From Hericium rajendrae (lineage: Eukaryota > Basidiomycota > Agaricomycetes > Russulales > Hericiaceae): a stretch of 64,000 nucleotides of DNA. The notes below the pieces were generated by a model. It was not told the origin of the DNA and ran no database searches. It saw nothing but the letters and a program-made list of their open reading frames with translations. Shown here one piece after another: positions 41,633-60,250 of this stretch (positions are counted from its first letter, which is position 1; every line of letters begins with the position of its first letter). The stretch is taken from contig CM065892.1 in the NCBI GenBank assembly GCA_033439255.1, forward strand, positions 744,001 through 808,000. Direction: 5' to 3'. The translations under genes were made by a program, and so were the position numbers.

Positions 41633-44888
<3,256 letters not shown>

Positions 44889-52304: not shown

Positions 52305-52679
52305 TGTTGAGATCGGGCAAACGCCTGATCGCCCAATAGCGCAGAGTGCGCGGACATGATATCTTATCGCTCTTTTAGATTAGATGCCAGGCCTGGGGCC
52401 TGAGACTCGTTACATAACGTACTATACAGTTGTGGTTCAGCCACTCGCGCCGCAGTATGTGGGCGCGAGTTTGTCGTCTGCGTGCCTCAGTGAATTCTGC
52501 TATCACTGAGGTAAGACGCTTCTCGACTTCTTTAATTAACACATTGTACTGATTCTATACTTAGAGTATTGATTGCTCGCTTTCGTATTAGGTATAATGC
52601 ACAGTGAATTCTGCTATCACTGAGAGTATTGATTGCTCGCTTTCGTATTAGCTCGTGCAACGTTCCTATAAATTTAACA
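52305..52679 (+). repeat. 5' LTR of a Ty1/copia element
   Basis: It begins TGTTGAGA and ends TTTAACA, so the ends have the TGTT...AACA inverted form usual for LTRs. It is followed directly by a primer-binding site. 375 bp. The 5' boundary is inferred; the 3' boundary is firm because of the primer site. The right LTR is not in the window. It contains the intron-like segment and tandem duplication described separately. Confidence 0.7.
52488..52651 (+). repeat. tandem 50-bp duplication, one copy with an intron-like insert
   Basis: Copy 1 is 52488-52510 plus 52565-52591, interrupted by 54 nt (52511-52564) starting GTAAGA and ending CTTAG. Copy 2 is 52602-52651, the same 50 bp without the insert. 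All 50 positions match. Confidence 0.85.
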
Positions 52680-52691
52680 GGTTATGGGCCC
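52680..52691 (+). promoter_or_regulatory. copia primer-binding site
   Basis: GGTTATGGGCCC directly follows the LTR CA end. It is complementary to the anticodon-loop region of initiator tRNA-Met and is the classic half-tRNA primer site of Drosophila copia. Confidence 0.75.
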
Positions 52692-52704
52692 TGCTGTCCA
52701 CGCC

Positions 52705-54486
52705 ATGTCACTCGGTAACAACTCGCTTAACTTCTATTCTGTGCCTAAATTGCAGAATGACGGAACGAACTGGATCACGTACAAGACCCGGCTCAGGACC
52801 GTGATTGGCGCCAAGGGCCTGATGCGACATCTCGATGGAACAGCCCAACAACCCTCTCTCCCGGCCAACCCGTCGGCCGCCGTGCAACCTAAGACTGACC
52901 CGCTGTCCGTTCTGATAGCGCCGGAGGCCTCTGGCAGTGCGAGCAAAGGGAAAGGGAAGGACGTTAAACCGAGTGAAGCGGAGCTAGACGCATTCGAGAA
53001 GGCGCTCGAGAAGCTCGAGGAGTGGGAACAGAAGCAGTACATCGTCAAGCAACAGATCTTCTTGACGATCACCGACTCGCTTCTGCTCCGCGTGCAGGCG
53101 CTCCATCATGCCCACGAGGTCTGGAACACCGTGTGCAGAGAATTCGAAGCCAAGACGATGATGGTCCAAATTGACCTCCGTTGCCGACTCCAAGACACTC
53201 GATGCGATGACAGCACCGACATCCGCACTCACTTTGATGGTCTCCTCTGTATGAAGGAGGAACTGTCTGGTATGGGGACGACGCTCCAGGACGTGGACTT
53301 TTCGGCAATCATTATGTCATCCTTGCCGAAATCTTTCGATCCGGTCCTGTCATCCATGCTCTCGGCTGCCCGTATCTCCAACAAATCCCTAGATCCTCAC
53401 ACGATCATTGCTCATATTACGGAAGAGTACGATCGACGCTCCATTCAAGCGCGATTGGAAAAGAAAGCATCCGACGGGACAGCTTTACTCACCGCTGGCG
53501 ACGTGAAGAAGAAGCGCAGCCGGAGCAATGGCAAGAAGGATGGGACAAAATGCCCGAACTGCGGCAAGGGTTATCACACCGTTGCAAACTGCTGGTCGAA
53601 GGGCGGAGGTAAAGAAGGGCAAGGGCCGGAGAGGAAAGGCGGCGGTAGCGGGAAGGAGTCCTGGGATCGAGGTTCCGCAAATATCGCGGCCGACCTGGAG
53701 ACAAATTTTGCCTTCTCAGCACTAGCCGCGGCGACTCCCCAACCCGATCTGACACGGTGTATTGACACCGGCGCCAGTCACCATTACTCTCCATTCCGAT
53801 CTGAATTTATCGACTTTCATCAGATCGCTCCGAAGCCGATCGTCGCTGCTGATCAGCATGTCTTCTTCGCGACAGGAGAAGGGAACGTAATTGTCAACTT
53901 CCCGAACGGGAAGACGTCAACCCGCATTACGCTCCAAAATGTCTTGTACACCCCGAGCATAGCATTTATGCTCGTTTCCATCAGTCGAATCGACGAGTCG
54001 CACTTCACAACGACTTTTTGTGACGGCCAATGCCAAATTCGAAGCCCAAACGGCACAATCATTGCACGAATTCCCTGTACCAACAACTTGTACAAATTCG
54101 TGTGCCCCGCCAATGCCAACGTCAAGCACGCGCTCGCGGCCATTATGCCCACAGAAGCCCACCTCACACTGTCTGCCGCCAAGCTCCATCGCCGGCTCGG
54201 ACACATGTCCATCGATGCCGCCAAATCGCTGATCCGCAAGGGCGCGATCGTCGGTATTGATCTCAAGACCCTTAACGAGGCAATGGAACTTTGCCGCGCG
54301 TGCATCCAAGCCAAGATTACCCGGATACCGTTCCCGAAGGAACGTTCTCGCCCGCGCGCGACGACCTACGGCGAATTAATATCCTCTGACCTTTTTGGCC
54401 CGGCTCAGGTTGAATCACTGGCCGGCTCCCGATACGCGATGACGCTCCTCGACGATGCGACATACGAGATCATGATCTCGTTCCTG
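52705..54486 (+). CDS. copia gag-pol, N-terminal part (gag, protease, integrase start)
   Basis: The ATG at 52684 overlaps the primer-binding site, so I take the next in-frame ATG at 52705 (MSLGNNSLNFYSVPKLQND). Gag has GTNWITYKTRLRTVIGAKGL and the usual UBN2-type helices (EVWNTVCREFEAKTMMVQID, SLPKSFDPVLSSML). A zinc knuckle CPNCGKGYHTVANC (CX2CX4HX4C) precedes the protease CIDTGASHHYSP. The integrase zinc region is LHRRLGHMSIDAAKSLI with CRACIQAK, then ELISSDLFGP holding the first catalytic Asp. The frame then enters the inserted DNA element after the codon at 54484-54486 and stops soon after. No other frame damage in this half. Confidence 0.88.
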
Positions 54487-54834
54487 CATCAGGAAAAAGT
54501 GTTTTTTGATTGATAGCCATGGTGATATTACGTTAAGCTATGGTATCAGTACCTGAGCTACAAATAGATAACCAATCAAATATGATAGCCGGTGTTCAGG
54601 TATTGATTACGATCCACTGTTACGTGCAGCAGGAAGCTCTCTACTGTAGCTTCTGTAGTGGACAGAATTGCCATGCTTTAGAGGCAGCACCACATATACA
54701 CACTTGCTAAAAATGAGTTCACAACTCCTATGTTATCACTCACAATACCATCAGATCTTCATACAGTATGCTGTAGGTCTAATTTACAAGGAGACAATTT
54801 ATCTAATTTAATCTACCACCAGTACCTGATGCCC

Positions 54835-54870
54835 GTGGAAAATGTTCTGTTGTAGCAGAACACTTCCCAC
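54835..54870. repeat. hairpin A in element 1
   Basis: The arms at 54835-54849 and 54856-54870 pair at 13 of 15 positions (core GTTCTG/CAGAAC, outer GTGG/CCAC), with loop TTGTAG. Confidence 0.75.
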
Positions 54871-54889
54871 ACAATCCTAAAAAAGATTC

Positions 54890-55640
54890 GTCGAAGCTAA
54901 AATATGTGCCGACATGGCCCACTTGCAGTGTGAGGTGCGAGGGGACCGGCATGGGACGACAGCTCAGGCAACACATGAGACGGGCAGCGTGAGGCGCAGG
55001 ATATGGGGGGTAGGCGCAGTGTGAAATGGCAGCGGGTGCGAGGCGTGGTGGTGATGCAGTGCAGCACGGGTTGGGGACGAATTTCGGGCACGGGGGACGT
55101 GGGGCACAGCGCGGAACAATGGCGCACGGGGGACGTGCAATGCGCGGGACCGAACAGCAGTATGCGCGAGGGGCGAAGGTGACGCGCGCAGCACGCGATG
55201 GACCTCGGCAAGGCGTGGGGCACGGCATGGGATGGCGATATGAGACAGGACCGCAGTGGGCAGGGCACGGAGGTGATGCGTGTGGCACGGGACGCGCAGG
55301 TGAAGCACGAGGAGCGGGGGCAGAATGGCAGCATATGCGAGACGATGGGCTGAGCCCAACCTGTTACCTCCCATGCTAGCACCATCTCCACCGCGCATCA
55401 TCACGGACGCCTGCCAACCACGCTTCCAGCTCGTGGTTGCGCGACGCTGCTTGACAGCATGACCCACTGCGACACTGCTCACGTCAGGCGACAGGCGTGC
55501 GTGAGATTCGTGGGGACGACACGCAGAGGCAGGCGGGATGGCGGAGGGCCATCTGCAAGGTGTGAAGGACGAGCGTGAGTGGCACTCGTCATATGCGTGT
55601 GCTGTGCGCGGGAGATCTGCGCACCTGAGGCAGGGGCGGG
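54890..55640. repeat. G-rich low-complexity block in element 1
   Basis: Degenerate GGCACGG / GGTGAAGCACG / GGGACGTG units on the plus strand. Long ORFs here are compositional and not genes. A similar block lies in element 2 at 62260-62640. Confidence 0.6.
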
Positions 55641-55890
55641 GACGTGCGGTGTTGCGCAATGCGTGAGCTGTGAATGGATGTGACAATGGGTGGCGGGCAT
55701 AGCGCCTTGCGAGACGTAGGAGATGCAGAGGTTCATGCGCGAGGCAGAGGCCTCTGTGCGTCTTGCTGTGCGCACGGTCCCATGGTCTACAAAAGCTATG
55801 TGAGTGAGCGCGAGAGGAAAAGTACGTACCTTGCGAGTCCCAGCACCTGGCACTACGGCCCACATATCAGCATTCAACATCAAAACCCTG

Positions 55891-55928
55891 CGTGGGACGT
55901 GTTTGGCTGTAGCCAAACGTTTCCCACG
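55891..55928. repeat. hairpin B in element 1
   Basis: Arms CGTGGGACGTGTTTGGCT and AGCCAAACGTTTCCCACG pair except around positions 8-10. Same plan as hairpins A and C with a different core. Confidence 0.75.
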
Positions 55929-56269
55929 CGCCCCCCGCATTTTTTTCCTTCAAGTCGAAACGCACGCAGGCACGGCCCGCTGCGCACCCGTGCTGTTTTA
56001 TTGCCCATATATGGTCACTAAAACGGATCAGGCCGCGCGGCTCCGTGCGCTCAACTTTGCGCGCGACTTGACTTTCCCTGCCACGTCGTCTTCCCTCCAC
56101 CCACATCTTCCTCATGGTGGTATTTTTGTTGTAAGTGTCTCTTCATCTTTTTTCGATTCTCCTTAGGCCGGGAATAAAGGTGAGTAGCTATAGTTTTTTC
56201 TGCAGCTTTATTGTACTAATGAAGAGAGTATCGCTCGTGGTGTCGAGCGATACTCTCGTTTTGTACACT

Positions 56270-57525
56270 CTGCATGGCCCCACCACCTCCTGCATGCCCA
56301 CGCCGCCTCCTGTATGCCCGCGCCGCCTCCTGTGCATCCCTACCACCTCCCGTACGCCTTCGCCGACTCCCGCACGGCCCACGTCGGCTCCCGCACACCA
56401 CGTCACCTCCCGCACACCACGTCACCTCCCGCACGCCACGCCGACTCCCGTGCACCTCCCACCGACTCGCTCGCACCACCACCGACTTACTTGCACTCCC
56501 ATCGACTCCCGCGCGCCCGTGCCAAGTCCCGAGCACCCGCGCCAAGTCGCGCGCACCCCCGCCGACTCGCTCGCACCCACGCCGACTCGCTCGCACCCAC
56601 GCCGACTCGCTTGCACCCACGCCGACTCACGCGCACACCCACCGACCTCCACACGCCCCGTCAACCTGCGCGCATCACCGCCGGCCCACGCAAGCCCCCG
56701 CCGACCCATGCGCACTGCCGCCGACTTTCGTGCGCCCCCCACCAACTCGTTCGCACCCATGCCGAGTTGCTCATGCCCCCGTCGACTCGCCTCACACGCA
56801 CCCCCACCGACTTCTGCATGCTCGCAGGGATGAATGAGTCGGCAAGAGTGTGTGGGAGGCAGTGCGGGCATGCAGGAGGCGGCAGGGGTGCGAGCGAGTC
56901 GGTGGGGGTGCGAGCGAGTCGGCGTGGGCGTGCGGGAGTTGGGAGTGGGACGCACGGGAGTTAGTGGGAGTCAGGGTGGGCATGCGAGAGGAGACATGGG
57001 CACACGGGAGTTGGCGAGAGCACGAGGGGGGTCGGGGTGGGCGGAGGTGGCAGCCGATGCCCACGCGCCACTACCGCCTCCCGCGTGCCCTCGCCAACTC
57101 CCATGCACCCATGTCGCCCCTTGCACACCCCTGTCGCCTCCCGCATGCTCTTGCCGACTCCCACCCACCTGTGCTGCCTCCCGCATGCTGCCTCCTACGC
57201 GCATGCACCGACTCGAACGCACATGCGCCGACGCCGATACCCCACATCCCCGCCGACTCGCATGCGCCCGCACCAATACCTGCATGCCCGTGCCGACTCT
57301 AACATGCCCATGCCCATGCCCACGCACCCCCGCCGACTCACGCGTGCCCTCGCCGACTCCAGCATGCCCTCGCCGACTCCGGCATGCCCCTGCCACCTCC
57401 AGCATGTCCCTGCTGATGTCCGCATGCCACCGCCGACCTCCGCATGCCCCCGCCGACCTCCGCATGCCCCTGCCGACCTCCGCATGCCTCCGCCGACTCC
57501 TACACACCCATGCTGCCTCCTGTAG
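56270..57525. repeat. C-rich tandem array with an inverted middle segment
   Basis: Degenerate units based on GCCGACTCGCTCGCACCCAC (20 bp, nearly perfect at 56562-56640) fill 56270-56825. From about 56830 to 57055 the same motif appears reverse-complemented (GTGCGAGCGAGTCGG). After 57055 the original orientation returns. Confidence 0.8.
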
Positions 57526-57529
57526 TGCG

Positions 57530-57563
57530 TGGGAACTGTTTTGCTGCAGCAAAACAGTTCCCA
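57530..57563. repeat. perfect 34-bp palindrome (hairpin C) in element 1
   Basis: Each half reads TGGGAACTGTTTTGCTG; the two halves are exact reverse complements with no spacer. Same plan as hairpins A and B. Confidence 0.95.
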
Positions 57564-57760
57564 TGAGGCATTGGATGCTGTGGATATAGAGGGGGAGATA
57601 TCATGCACAAGTACTATTAGTATACAAGATGTAACTAGCCAGAATACAAAATTTTGCATGATATATTGTTTGAGATGTGATCAGAGACTAAGTATAATGA
57701 ATTATAAGAAACTATATTATACTGAACCTCACATACTGCAGTATAACATCACAGTAGCCA

Positions 57761-57819
57761 GCATAAGCTACAGTGGCTAACATAAGCTACAGTAGCTAAC
57801 ATAAGCTATAGTAGATATA
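57761..57819 (+). repeat. 19-bp subterminal direct repeats
   Basis: Three tandem copies of CATAAGCTACAGTAGCTAA, with changes, lie 170-230 bp from the right end of element 1. More scattered CTACAGTAG/CTACTGTAG motifs follow. Confidence 0.75.
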
Positions 57820-57991
57820 CCATCTACAGACTGCTACGGATCACTACAGATGGCTACAGACAGCTACCTGTAGTTGTAATAAAGACCCACCTATCAACAG
57901 ATGCTACAGAAAATATATAATCTATTATAGCTACTGTAGACCATATTTTCTACTGTAGGCTAAAGTAGTGTGGACACTTTTTCCAGATGTG

Positions 57992-60250
57992 CGCGCAAAG
58001 AGCGAGGCTTTTGGTAAATTTCAAACCTACGAAAAGTTCATCCAAGTTCATCGCGGGGTAACGGTAATCAAGAACTTTCGTTCTGACCGCGGCGGCGAAT
58101 ACACCAGCACGGACTTCGAAGACCACCTTGCTAAGCAAGGCACTCACCACGAGAAGACAGTCCATGACTCATCCTCCCAGAACGGTGCTGCGGAAAGATT
58201 CTTCTGCACGAGCGTCACACGCGCGCTCACGATGCTTCTTGCTTCGGGCCTGCCGAAGTTCCTATGGGCGAACGCGATGCAGCACGTGGTGTGGTTGTGG
58301 AATCGCACCGGAGGGAAAGTCACCGGAGACCGAACGCCCTTCGAGCACGTCTTCGGCGATAAACCGGACCTGTCAGACTTACACAAGTGGGGTTGCCCGG
58401 TCTGGGTATGAATGGAAAATCGGCGCAAGCTCGACGCGCGCGCCGATGAGGGTCGTTTTGTGGGCTACAGCCCCGAAAGCAAAGGTGTATTAGTATATTG
58501 GCCAAAGAAACGGTCGATTACCACCGAGCGCAACGTCGTTTGGGACGACGCTGCGCTACCACCGCTCATCGACGAGCCAGCCGACCAATGGCTGCTCGAT
58601 TTCTTCGATGGCGGTGCCACCGAAGAAGTGGACATCATCGACGGAGGCGACGCCGTGCTGAGGAACTCCTCGACATCGGAACGTACGGCCCCCGATGATC
58701 CCACCCCAGCGCAAGACGCACAAGCGGCGCCCGAGGAGGGACCAAACCCTGGCAGTGCGGACGAGGCACAGCCCGATCTCGCAGCTCCCCAGGCTAGGCC
58801 TCCCGGCGCCATGCATGCCCCCAGCGTACCACTCACACCCGTACGCGACCACTCGGACCCCCTGACGGCGCCCAATGCACCACGCGCGCGCCGCACGATA
58901 GTGCCATCCCGCTATGTCCGCCTCCTCCAAGCCGGTGCCAGCAGCACAACTGGACTGCCGCGTGCTCCTCCCATGCCCAAGGGCATGCGAGTCACGCCAC
59001 GCACATTAAATTACGACGTACCTGGCAGCGAGAGCGAAGGCGACGCGGAAGCCGCATTGAGCGAGGCTCTGCGGCTCGAAGGGACGGCGACGGGGTTGAT
59101 CGAGTCAGACGAGGCGGACGGTATCCTCGTCCAGATTTCGGACGAGGGAATTGAGTGGGGAATGGCGGCGGCGAGTGTCGACGGCGAGGAGCCGCGCACC
59201 ATCAACGAGGCGAAGTTGAAGGAGGATTGGCCGATGTGGGAATCGGCCATCGAGGATGAGTTAAGGAGGCTCGATGAGATGGGAACATGGAGACTTACCG
59301 ACAAACCGCCCGGCGCCAACGTCGTCGGAAGCAAGTGGGTCTTCAAAATCAAGCGAGATGCTGCCGGGGCTATTAGCAAATACAAGGCGTGCCTCGTGGC
59401 ACAAGGCTTCTCCCAGATTCCGGGTATCGACTATATGGATACTTTTGCTCCCGTCGCTAAACTCTCGTCGATCCGCATCTTAGCCTCGCTTGCAGCCCGA
59501 TTCAACTGGGAACTTCACCAGATGGATGTAAAGAATGCATACCTCAACGGAGATCTCGAGGAGGAGATTTACATGAAGCAGCCACCAGGCTTTGCAGCCA
59601 CAGGGGCAGAGAAAAAAGTATGTGCCTTGCTTAAACCTATCTATGGGCTGAAGCAGGCCGGCCGTCGCTGGTACAAAAAGCTATGTGCCGCGTTCCTCGA
59701 CATGGGCTACATGCGTTCATCGGTCGACCACTCAGTATTCTTTCGGTATGGCGCCAACGACGAGATCGTCATCGTGGCGGTCTCTGTGGATGACCTGGCC
59801 ATAGCCACGAACTCAATCGCGGCCATGATCCAATTCAAGGACGCGCTCAAGGCACGTTTCGAGATGACCGATCTCGGGGAGCTCCATTGGCTCCTGGGCA
59901 TCGAGATCCAGCGCGACCGGGGGCGGCGGACTTTATCCATGTCCCAAAGTGCGTACATCGATACCATTATCTCGCGCTTCAATCTACAGGATGCCAAACC
60001 GCTGTCGACACCCCTCGATCCCTCGTTCCCACTCTCGAACCCGCAATCGCCCTCCACACCTCAGCAATTCGAGGACATGTGCAATGTTCTGTATCGCGAA
60101 GCGATCGGATCGCTGATGTATGCGGCACTCGGCACGCGCCCTGATGTTGCTTACTCGGTCACCACGCTCTCACAGTTCATGCAGAACCCGGGCCGCGTCC
60201 ACTGGGAGGCCGCCAAATGTGTCATGCGGTACCTCAAAGCTACACGCTGA
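57992..60250 (+). pseudogene. copia gag-pol, C-terminal part (integrase core, RT), with one stop
   Basis: The frame resumes at 57992 in phase with the first part. Integrase core: KNFRSDRGGEYTS and SSSQNGAAERFF (second Asp and the Glu). CPVWV is followed by TGA at 58409-58411; the same frame then continues ENRRKLDARADEGRFVGYSP, so this is a single nonsense mutation. Reverse transcriptase: KWVFKIKRDAAG, KACLVAQGFSQIPGIDY, TFAPVAKLSSIR, QMDVKNAYLNGDLEEEIYMK, PIYGLKQAGRRWYKKL, VIVAVSVDDLAIA (catalytic VDD) and LGELHWLLGIEI. It ends IGSLMYAALGTRPDVAY then RYLK, where copia homology stops at about 60241 and an adventitious stop follows at 60248-60250. RNase H is missing. Confidence 0.88.

Follow-up and report, generated by a model that had tools for sequence, protein, structure and literature searches.

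When a spliced RNA is reverse transcribed, its introns should be lost; a constitutive leader intron is thus unexpected in an LTR retroelement. How, then, could an LTR carry, side by side, an intron-like insert and a copy of the same sequence joined exactly where splicing would join it? This question is raised by the 5' LTR of a copia element from the basidiomycete Hericium rajendrae, found in a 64,000-nucleotide stretch of genomic DNA that was analyzed as a whole and is referred to below as the window. The genome that contains it comprises 46.8 Mb in 19 contigs. A preliminary description of this locus had proposed that a leader RNA was once spliced, reverse transcribed, and recombined with an unspliced LTR, leaving both forms adjacent to each other. 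The current analysis points instead to a process that probably recurs.

Layout of the LTR

The LTR consists, in this order, of a segment designated E1, a 54-nt insert that starts with GT and ends with AG, a second segment (E2), a spacer, and a contiguous copy of both segments, E1'E2' (Table 1). On direct reading, E1' is identical to E1 and E2' is identical to E2. The C residues at 52488 and 52602 match as well, which gives the 23+27 bp that had been reported to be split by 54 nt and then rejoined with all 50 bases identical; this observation was confirmed, and the 2-nt AG ambiguity at the borders is real. The second LTR, located ∼23 kb further on, beyond the window, has the same layout, and the two LTRs differ by one mismatch over 375 positions, at 52541. 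The GCAAA sequence that precedes the first LTR and trails the second one represents a 5-bp target duplication.

The pattern of a GT..AG insert followed by a downstream joined copy was scanned for on both strands of 16 window chunks, with 80 Markov-resampled chunks serving as a control. The window produced a match at the LTR site (score of 50), another one in a low-complexity minisatellite (score of 30), and no others; the scan found none in the 80 control chunks, so chance or a low-complexity repeat was rejected as the source of the LTR pattern. Comparison of the window with Rfam at gathering thresholds gave no match, and no related locus was found in IMG/VR. A second palindrome, CTCGCGCC..GGCGCGAG, is present in U3 (window positions 52440-52470) and has counterparts in some of the other families designated A to H.

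Table 1. Coordinates, strands, and properties of the features of the copia element in the window
Feature	Position	Strand	Remarks
Target site duplication GCAAA	52300..52304	.	Second copy 3' of the 3' LTR, beyond the window
5' LTR	52305..52679	+	TGTTG...TTAACA, 375 bp; pairs with C15:819294-819669
Inverted repeat / predicted RNA hairpin	52473..52519	+	U3 end, E1, intron-1 donor
Putative exon 1 (E1)	52489..52510	+	A at 52489 is the presumed transcription start; left repeat border
Presumed intron 1	52511..52564	+	54 nt, GTAAGA..CTGAT..CTTAG
Putative exon 2 (E2)	52565..52591	+	Read directly
Presumed intron 2	52592..52651	+	60 nt: spacer GTATAATGCAC + E1' + E2', TTAG end
Upstream ATG within presumed intron 2	52597
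E1' copy	52603..52624	+	Read directly
E2' copy, also presumed 3' splice site of intron 2	52625..52651	+
Tail (LTR end)	52652..52679	+	Would directly follow E2 once both presumed introns are removed
Primer binding site (PBS) GGTTATGGGCCC	52680..52691	+	Abuts the 5' LTR
gag / Pol_BBD / pre-integrase ORF	52684..54513	+	ATG inside the PBS
RT (RVT_2) ORF	58412..60250	+	Taken as the same element, beyond an insertion

The copia element and its host genome

The element combines an RVT_2-type reverse transcriptase (RT), encoded downstream of the copia-type gag and the pre-integrase, with a TG..CA LTR pair, the 5-bp target duplication, and a PBS that abuts the LTR, all as in other members of the Ty1/copia group. 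The first ORF contains the domains PF14223, PF22936, and PF13976 and the second one the domains PF25597 and PF07727; neither of these ORFs gave a match to the integrase core itself. The PBS sequence GGTTATGGGCCC, which we take to be the complement of the anticodon region of the initiator tRNA, is also found 3' of the 5' LTRs in families I, J, and M. In the window element, the gag start codon is located within the PBS; it apparently lies further downstream in I, J, and M (L078, L079, and L080). The element is interrupted by an insertion (54514-58411) that includes a GC-rich array of ∼20-bp units in both orientations (minisatellite at 56278-57527), and similar-looking GC-rich repeats were seen at L083 and L041. 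The best named matches of the RT protein come from Hericium alpestre and Bondarzewia mesenterica. The window also contains a host MCM6-like gene with short introns, on the minus strand at about 42400-44531.

Copia LTRs in the genome

Further copia LTRs were obtained from genome searches with the LTR and with the RT protein, the latter giving 72 matches, 30 of them with loci. The scan detected the two-intron layout, i.e., the arrangement seen in the window, in 42 of the 55 LTR rows examined, among which the 18 rows L016-L033, all members of family D, do not count as independent. Reading of the sequences added to these 42 another 4 two-intron LTRs and 7 single-intron LTRs. Thus, L052, L058, and L063 show the two-intron layout despite being scan-negative: L052 is broken at its 3' end, L063 contains mismatches, and L058 has ∼1 kb of foreign DNA inserted into intron 1. 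L064 is the same DNA as L052, seen from the other side, and L037, a member of family D, has the two-intron layout with AT instead of GT as the intron-1 donor. The J-type LTR at L082 has kept intron 1 and E2, and its second copy is degraded. At L059, the LTR lies outside the stretch that was read, and J-like LTRs are found further off; no LTR lies in the flanks of L039, L041, L043, and L049. L057, L061, L062, L065, L066, L067, and L068 make up a separate, single-intron clade (see below). No intact intronless LTR was found among the rows read, which on the RT side represent the 30 of 72 matches with loci. Members with different borders or without the tandem copy, which the preliminary description had named as potential evidence against its proposal, were looked for among the 55 rows, and the failures of the scan are explained on reading, L059 aside.

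Families I, J, and K, whose RTs are 38 to 46% identical to that of the window element, have the same arrangement of E1 and E2, with sequences that are unlike those in the window except for the AG..CTGAG ends. In family D, a near-identical upstream flank is common to 15 of the 17 loci with an anchor (L030 and L031 share another one), and, judging from this common flank, the D copies look like passengers in a larger repeat. In the upstream flank of L013, the start of a K-type LTR (CTCAGTTCC..GAGCTGAGG) abuts the family C LTR, which suggests that an older copia LTR was hit by an insertion close to its donor site. The one RVT_1-type element scanned, L083 (9 kb, with its first LTR partly included), contained no match; the single match at that locus fell into a GC-rich tandem repeat outside the element.

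Presumed splice signals

A repeat search that did not require GT or AG recovered 11 LTRs, in all of which GT follows E1 and AG is found at the E2 junction, given the 2-nt AG ambiguity. Further comparisons were made with 18 exemplars, which had been selected for showing the layout and include related families that are not independent; 16 of them came from a scan that required intron 1 to have GT and AG, and, in families D, F, and H, E2 was trimmed by hand to its last AG. Intron 1 is 54 to 64 nt long in 17 of the 18. CTNAY, the fungal branch consensus, is found within the last 40 nt of this intron in every exemplar; 1,000 shuffles gave 7.0 exemplars on average and 14 at most, and U3 contains the motif in 5 exemplars. 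The putative intron 1 has GT..AG ends, a branch-like motif, and a host-like length, the single host intron compared being that of the MCM6 gene (43969-44027 on the minus strand, 59 nt, with CTGAC and TAG).

The two bases after the first E2 are GT in all 18 exemplars (with E2 trimmed by hand in D, F, and H). In copy 2, GT follows E2' in family F and also in the family I 5' LTR, where this GT belongs to the PBS. Because of the GT after the first E2, the spacer together with E1' and E2' reads as a second intron, whose acceptor would be the end of E2'. This presumed intron 2 measures 55 to 71 nt in 16 exemplars and includes a relaxed branch-like motif in 15 of the 18. The doubly spliced product, E1-E2-tail, would be identical to E1'E2'-tail. 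E2' forms the end of the LTR in family I, where splicing at this end would keep GGTTATGGGCCC intact. In all five exemplars that were read into the PBS (A to E), the first ATG of the spliced leader would be the one in the PBS. Of 16 exemplars, 12 have ATG triplets within intron 1 or the spacer, versus a single case in an exon or tail (the tail of H), counts that are not normalized for length. The presumed second intron that encloses the spliced copy, the left border as a likely start site, the PBS, and the single-intron clade all go beyond the preliminary description.

Proposed mechanism

Judging from the sequences, the arrangement is probably maintained by recurrent strand transfer of a spliced leader: each LTR would specify a leader with two introns that are regained, and E1'E2' would be rewritten. 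The leader would have the structure E1-intron 1-E2-intron 2-tail-PBS, with E1'E2' forming the end of intron 2. Pol II would initiate at the first A of E1, and the 5' leader would then lose both introns to become E1-E2-tail-PBS, with the 3' LTR part of this RNA remaining unspliced; this mechanism requires retention of intron 1 in the RNA of the 3' LTR. The strong-stop DNA primed at the PBS, tail-E2-E1, could be expected to pair with the contiguous E1'E2' near the 3' end of the RNA, in which case the R region would be the spliced E1E2. Subsequent extension would copy the spacer, E2, intron 1, E1, and U3, so that new LTRs would regain both introns and the spliced E1E2 would overwrite E1'E2'. The poly(A) site is conjectured to lie within intron 2. 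A likely purpose of such a cycle would be to keep a promoter-proximal intron through an RNA-based life cycle and to remove the upstream ATGs.

Presumed start site and predicted hairpin

The left border of the repeat has CTC before the AG in all 18 exemplars; together with the TATATA of family J, this makes it a fitting place for a start site. A perfect TATATA is located 31 to 34 nt upstream of E1 in 3 of 3 J exemplars, which have it before E1 and not before E1'; it is not found in the window element. One-mismatch forms precede E1 in families B, E, and G and, J excepted, are missing in the others; such a hexamer also precedes E1' in I (at -45) and in K_L058 (at -20).

The left border also lies within an inverted repeat. 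For the window LTR, the predicted minimum free energy of the resulting hairpin is -21.8 kcal/mol with the U3 arm and -6.3 kcal/mol without it. The local fold averages -21.4 kcal/mol (z of -2.9) with the U3 arm present and -6.3 kcal/mol (z of -0.2) from E1 on; around copy 2, it averages -10.9 kcal/mol (z of -0.6). Since this hairpin needs the U3 arm, it would be possible only in RNA that includes U3, i.e., in the transcript of the 3' LTR. In all 18 two-intron exemplars, CTCAG..CTGAG arms allow E1 by itself to fold into a hairpin. The U3 hairpin, by covering the donor, might keep intron 1 in the RNA of the 3' LTR, a tentative suggestion on which the evidence is mixed. In a covariation comparison of this stem, 260 of 396 cells were paired versus 131 to 154 after sliding, yet extra pair types numbered 26 versus 17 to 25, which is not decisive evidence. 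An arm-shuffle control fell at or below the real value in no more than 5 of 100 cases only for A2, B, C, and G, and, according to the partition function, only 9 of the 18 exemplars have a less accessible donor in the 3' context, which leaves a simple lock unsupported.

These data bear on the alternative that transcription starts from E1' and involves no splicing, the E1-insert-E2 part being a regulatory duplicate that gene conversion or template switching keeps alike. In that case, R-U5 would consist of just E1'E2'-tail; most families indeed lack a good TATA before E1, and conversion between tandem repeats is common. Such a scheme leaves unexplained why dissimilar families have GT after both E1 and E2 and AG both 5' of E2 and as the last bases of E2', and why CTNAY is found in 18 of 18 exemplars versus 7.0 in shuffles. 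Nor does it explain why TATATA stands before E1 rather than E1' in all three J exemplars or why the ATGs fall into intron 1 or the spacer (12 of 16 exemplars, without length normalization) versus one in an exon or tail (H). A start at E1' thus appears rather unlikely.

Similarity of the copies within LTRs

Copies 1 and 2 of the same LTR differ on average by 1.17 edits, with no differences at all in 12 of the 18 exemplars, whereas copy 1 differs between families by a mean of 18.6 edits (range, 1 to 26). Among the 10 related exemplars of families A to H, 0 of 100,000 random pairings were as close as the real ones. F and F2 are one base apart, and they differ identically in both copies. With the pair having changed in step across divergent families, the process looks recurrent. 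Recurrent transfer of a spliced leader would account at once for the likeness within LTRs, the divergence between families, the borders, and the absence of intronless LTRs from the copies read.

The copies differ in 6 of the 18 exemplars (D, 2; G, 4; H, 5; I2, 3; J2, 1; and K_L063, 6 differences). The RT genes of G, H, and I2 contain stop codons, and those of J2 and K_L063 have open frames; the differences in the latter two must be later mutations, or else the rewriting is not obligatory. The six differences in K_L063 count against rewriting in every cycle unless they were acquired after insertion. Several D copies carry a common variant of E1 or E1' that is missing from the other copy; these one-sided variants fit passengers and would be contrary to the proposal if D moves by itself.

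K_L063, with its open RT frame and six differences, is what would be expected if splicing is real and the copies are equalized occasionally, at the DNA level or by template switching, and not at every strand transfer, and on sequence data alone these routes would look the same. Occasional equalization is nevertheless an improbable substitute for transfer of the leader, given that the homologous tract spans the distance from the presumed 5' end of the RNA to the presumed intron-2 donor, as predicted for transfer from a capped spliced RNA. A single ancestral event of splicing and reverse transcription with plain vertical inheritance thereafter, essentially the relic envisioned in the preliminary description, would produce the exact splice-like border found in the window. 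After such an event, the copies should have diverged at least as much as the families did, and 1.17 edits within LTRs versus 18.6 between families would need later conversion; this version is very unlikely, and the one-off relic was rejected. The other part of the earlier proposal, a leader that was spliced and reverse transcribed so that both forms came to be adjacent, gains support from the splice-site signals, the borders, and the additional families. No support emerged for the suggested role in RNA packaging. Selection on the sequence itself, e.g., through a protein or RNA that binds both copies, could invoke the E1 hairpin arms found in 18 of 18 two-intron exemplars and is hardly credible, because the E1 loop and E2 vary by family and still match within an LTR, a fixed motif would keep the families alike, and no such E1/E2 motif shared across families has been seen so far.

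The fullest version of the preferred reading, leader strand transfer, would combine a start-site-dependent U3 hairpin, a poly(A) site in intron 2, and obligatory rewriting of the exons in each generation into a solution of the intron-loss problem. As a joint claim, this falls somewhat short of an even chance.

The single-intron clade

LTRs of the single-intron clade consist of E1 (AGTTGC..CTGCAG), a putative 53-nt intron that ends in a copy of E1, and then TCTCTAATC; the L061 query gave 44 matches. E1 and E1' are identical in six of the seven copies that came from RT matches and differ by one base in L068. Two further LTRs, L080 and L081, have identical copies and copies one base apart, respectively. 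Both layouts follow a common rule, the final intron of the leader terminating with a duplicate of the joined exons. The hairpin is absent in this clade (z of -0.5 to 0 in six copies), in which the sole acceptor is at the end of the R copy.

Comparison with known systems

In contrast to the R-mediated minus-strand transfer of Ty1/copia elements, the R region here appears to be the spliced two-exon leader, a contiguous copy of which is held inside the second intron. In the retroviruses HTLV-1 and foamy viruses, the major splice donor is in R and the acceptor in the body, and their full-length genomes are unspliced. The copia LTRs are similar to these in having a splice donor inside the LTR; unlike them, they seemingly contain complete introns, which would leave the 5' leader and yet be regained. 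Penelope-like elements have a different RT and a different route, with no LTR strand transfer. The similarity to the latter, according to the available part of PMC3846280, is that they are retroelements that keep spliceosomal introns.

Fungal transposon RNAs are known to meet the spliceosome: the accessible text of PMC7175516 presents the cryptic intron of the fission yeast Tf2 and the RNAi against poorly spliced transposon transcripts in Cryptococcus as silencing routes, whereas neither an LTR-internal intron nor its regeneration is described there. LTR-internal introns are likewise not described in the accessible parts of PMC12810828 and PMC10817607. In Tf1 and the fungal GalEa elements, too, a hairpin is conserved close to where reverse transcription starts; as described in the available text of PMC5445492, those hairpins are at the PBS, whereas the one predicted here spans U3, E1, and the intron-1 donor. 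Words that start with “intron” or “splic” do not occur in its main text. An engineered vector named LTR1, which matches the phrase “intron in the LTR” in the accessible part of PMC5542766, was set aside as not relevant. Among the open-access matches listed, there was no precedent for retrotransposon LTR introns or for intron-restoring strand transfer; an older report may exist.

Implications

Introns have been reported to be important for gene expression in Cryptococcus (PMC3744415), Ganoderma (PMC7017817), and Armillaria (PMC4935854), in each case according to the part of the paper that is available. Elements that live in such intron-dependent basidiomycetes would benefit from a leader intron able to survive reverse transcription. 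The arrangement described here suggests how elements that are copied via spliced RNA may recover their introns. If this is correct, introns would be usable for expression and still be inherited, since R itself seems to be the spliced product. The proposal predicts split reads across the leader introns and directional rewriting of the exons in new insertions, and it provides a search rule for other fungal genomes, namely, a final leader intron whose 3' end duplicates the joined exons. It would also bear on the need of basidiomycete genes for introns and on how LTRs may come to use their poly(A) site at the 3' end only.
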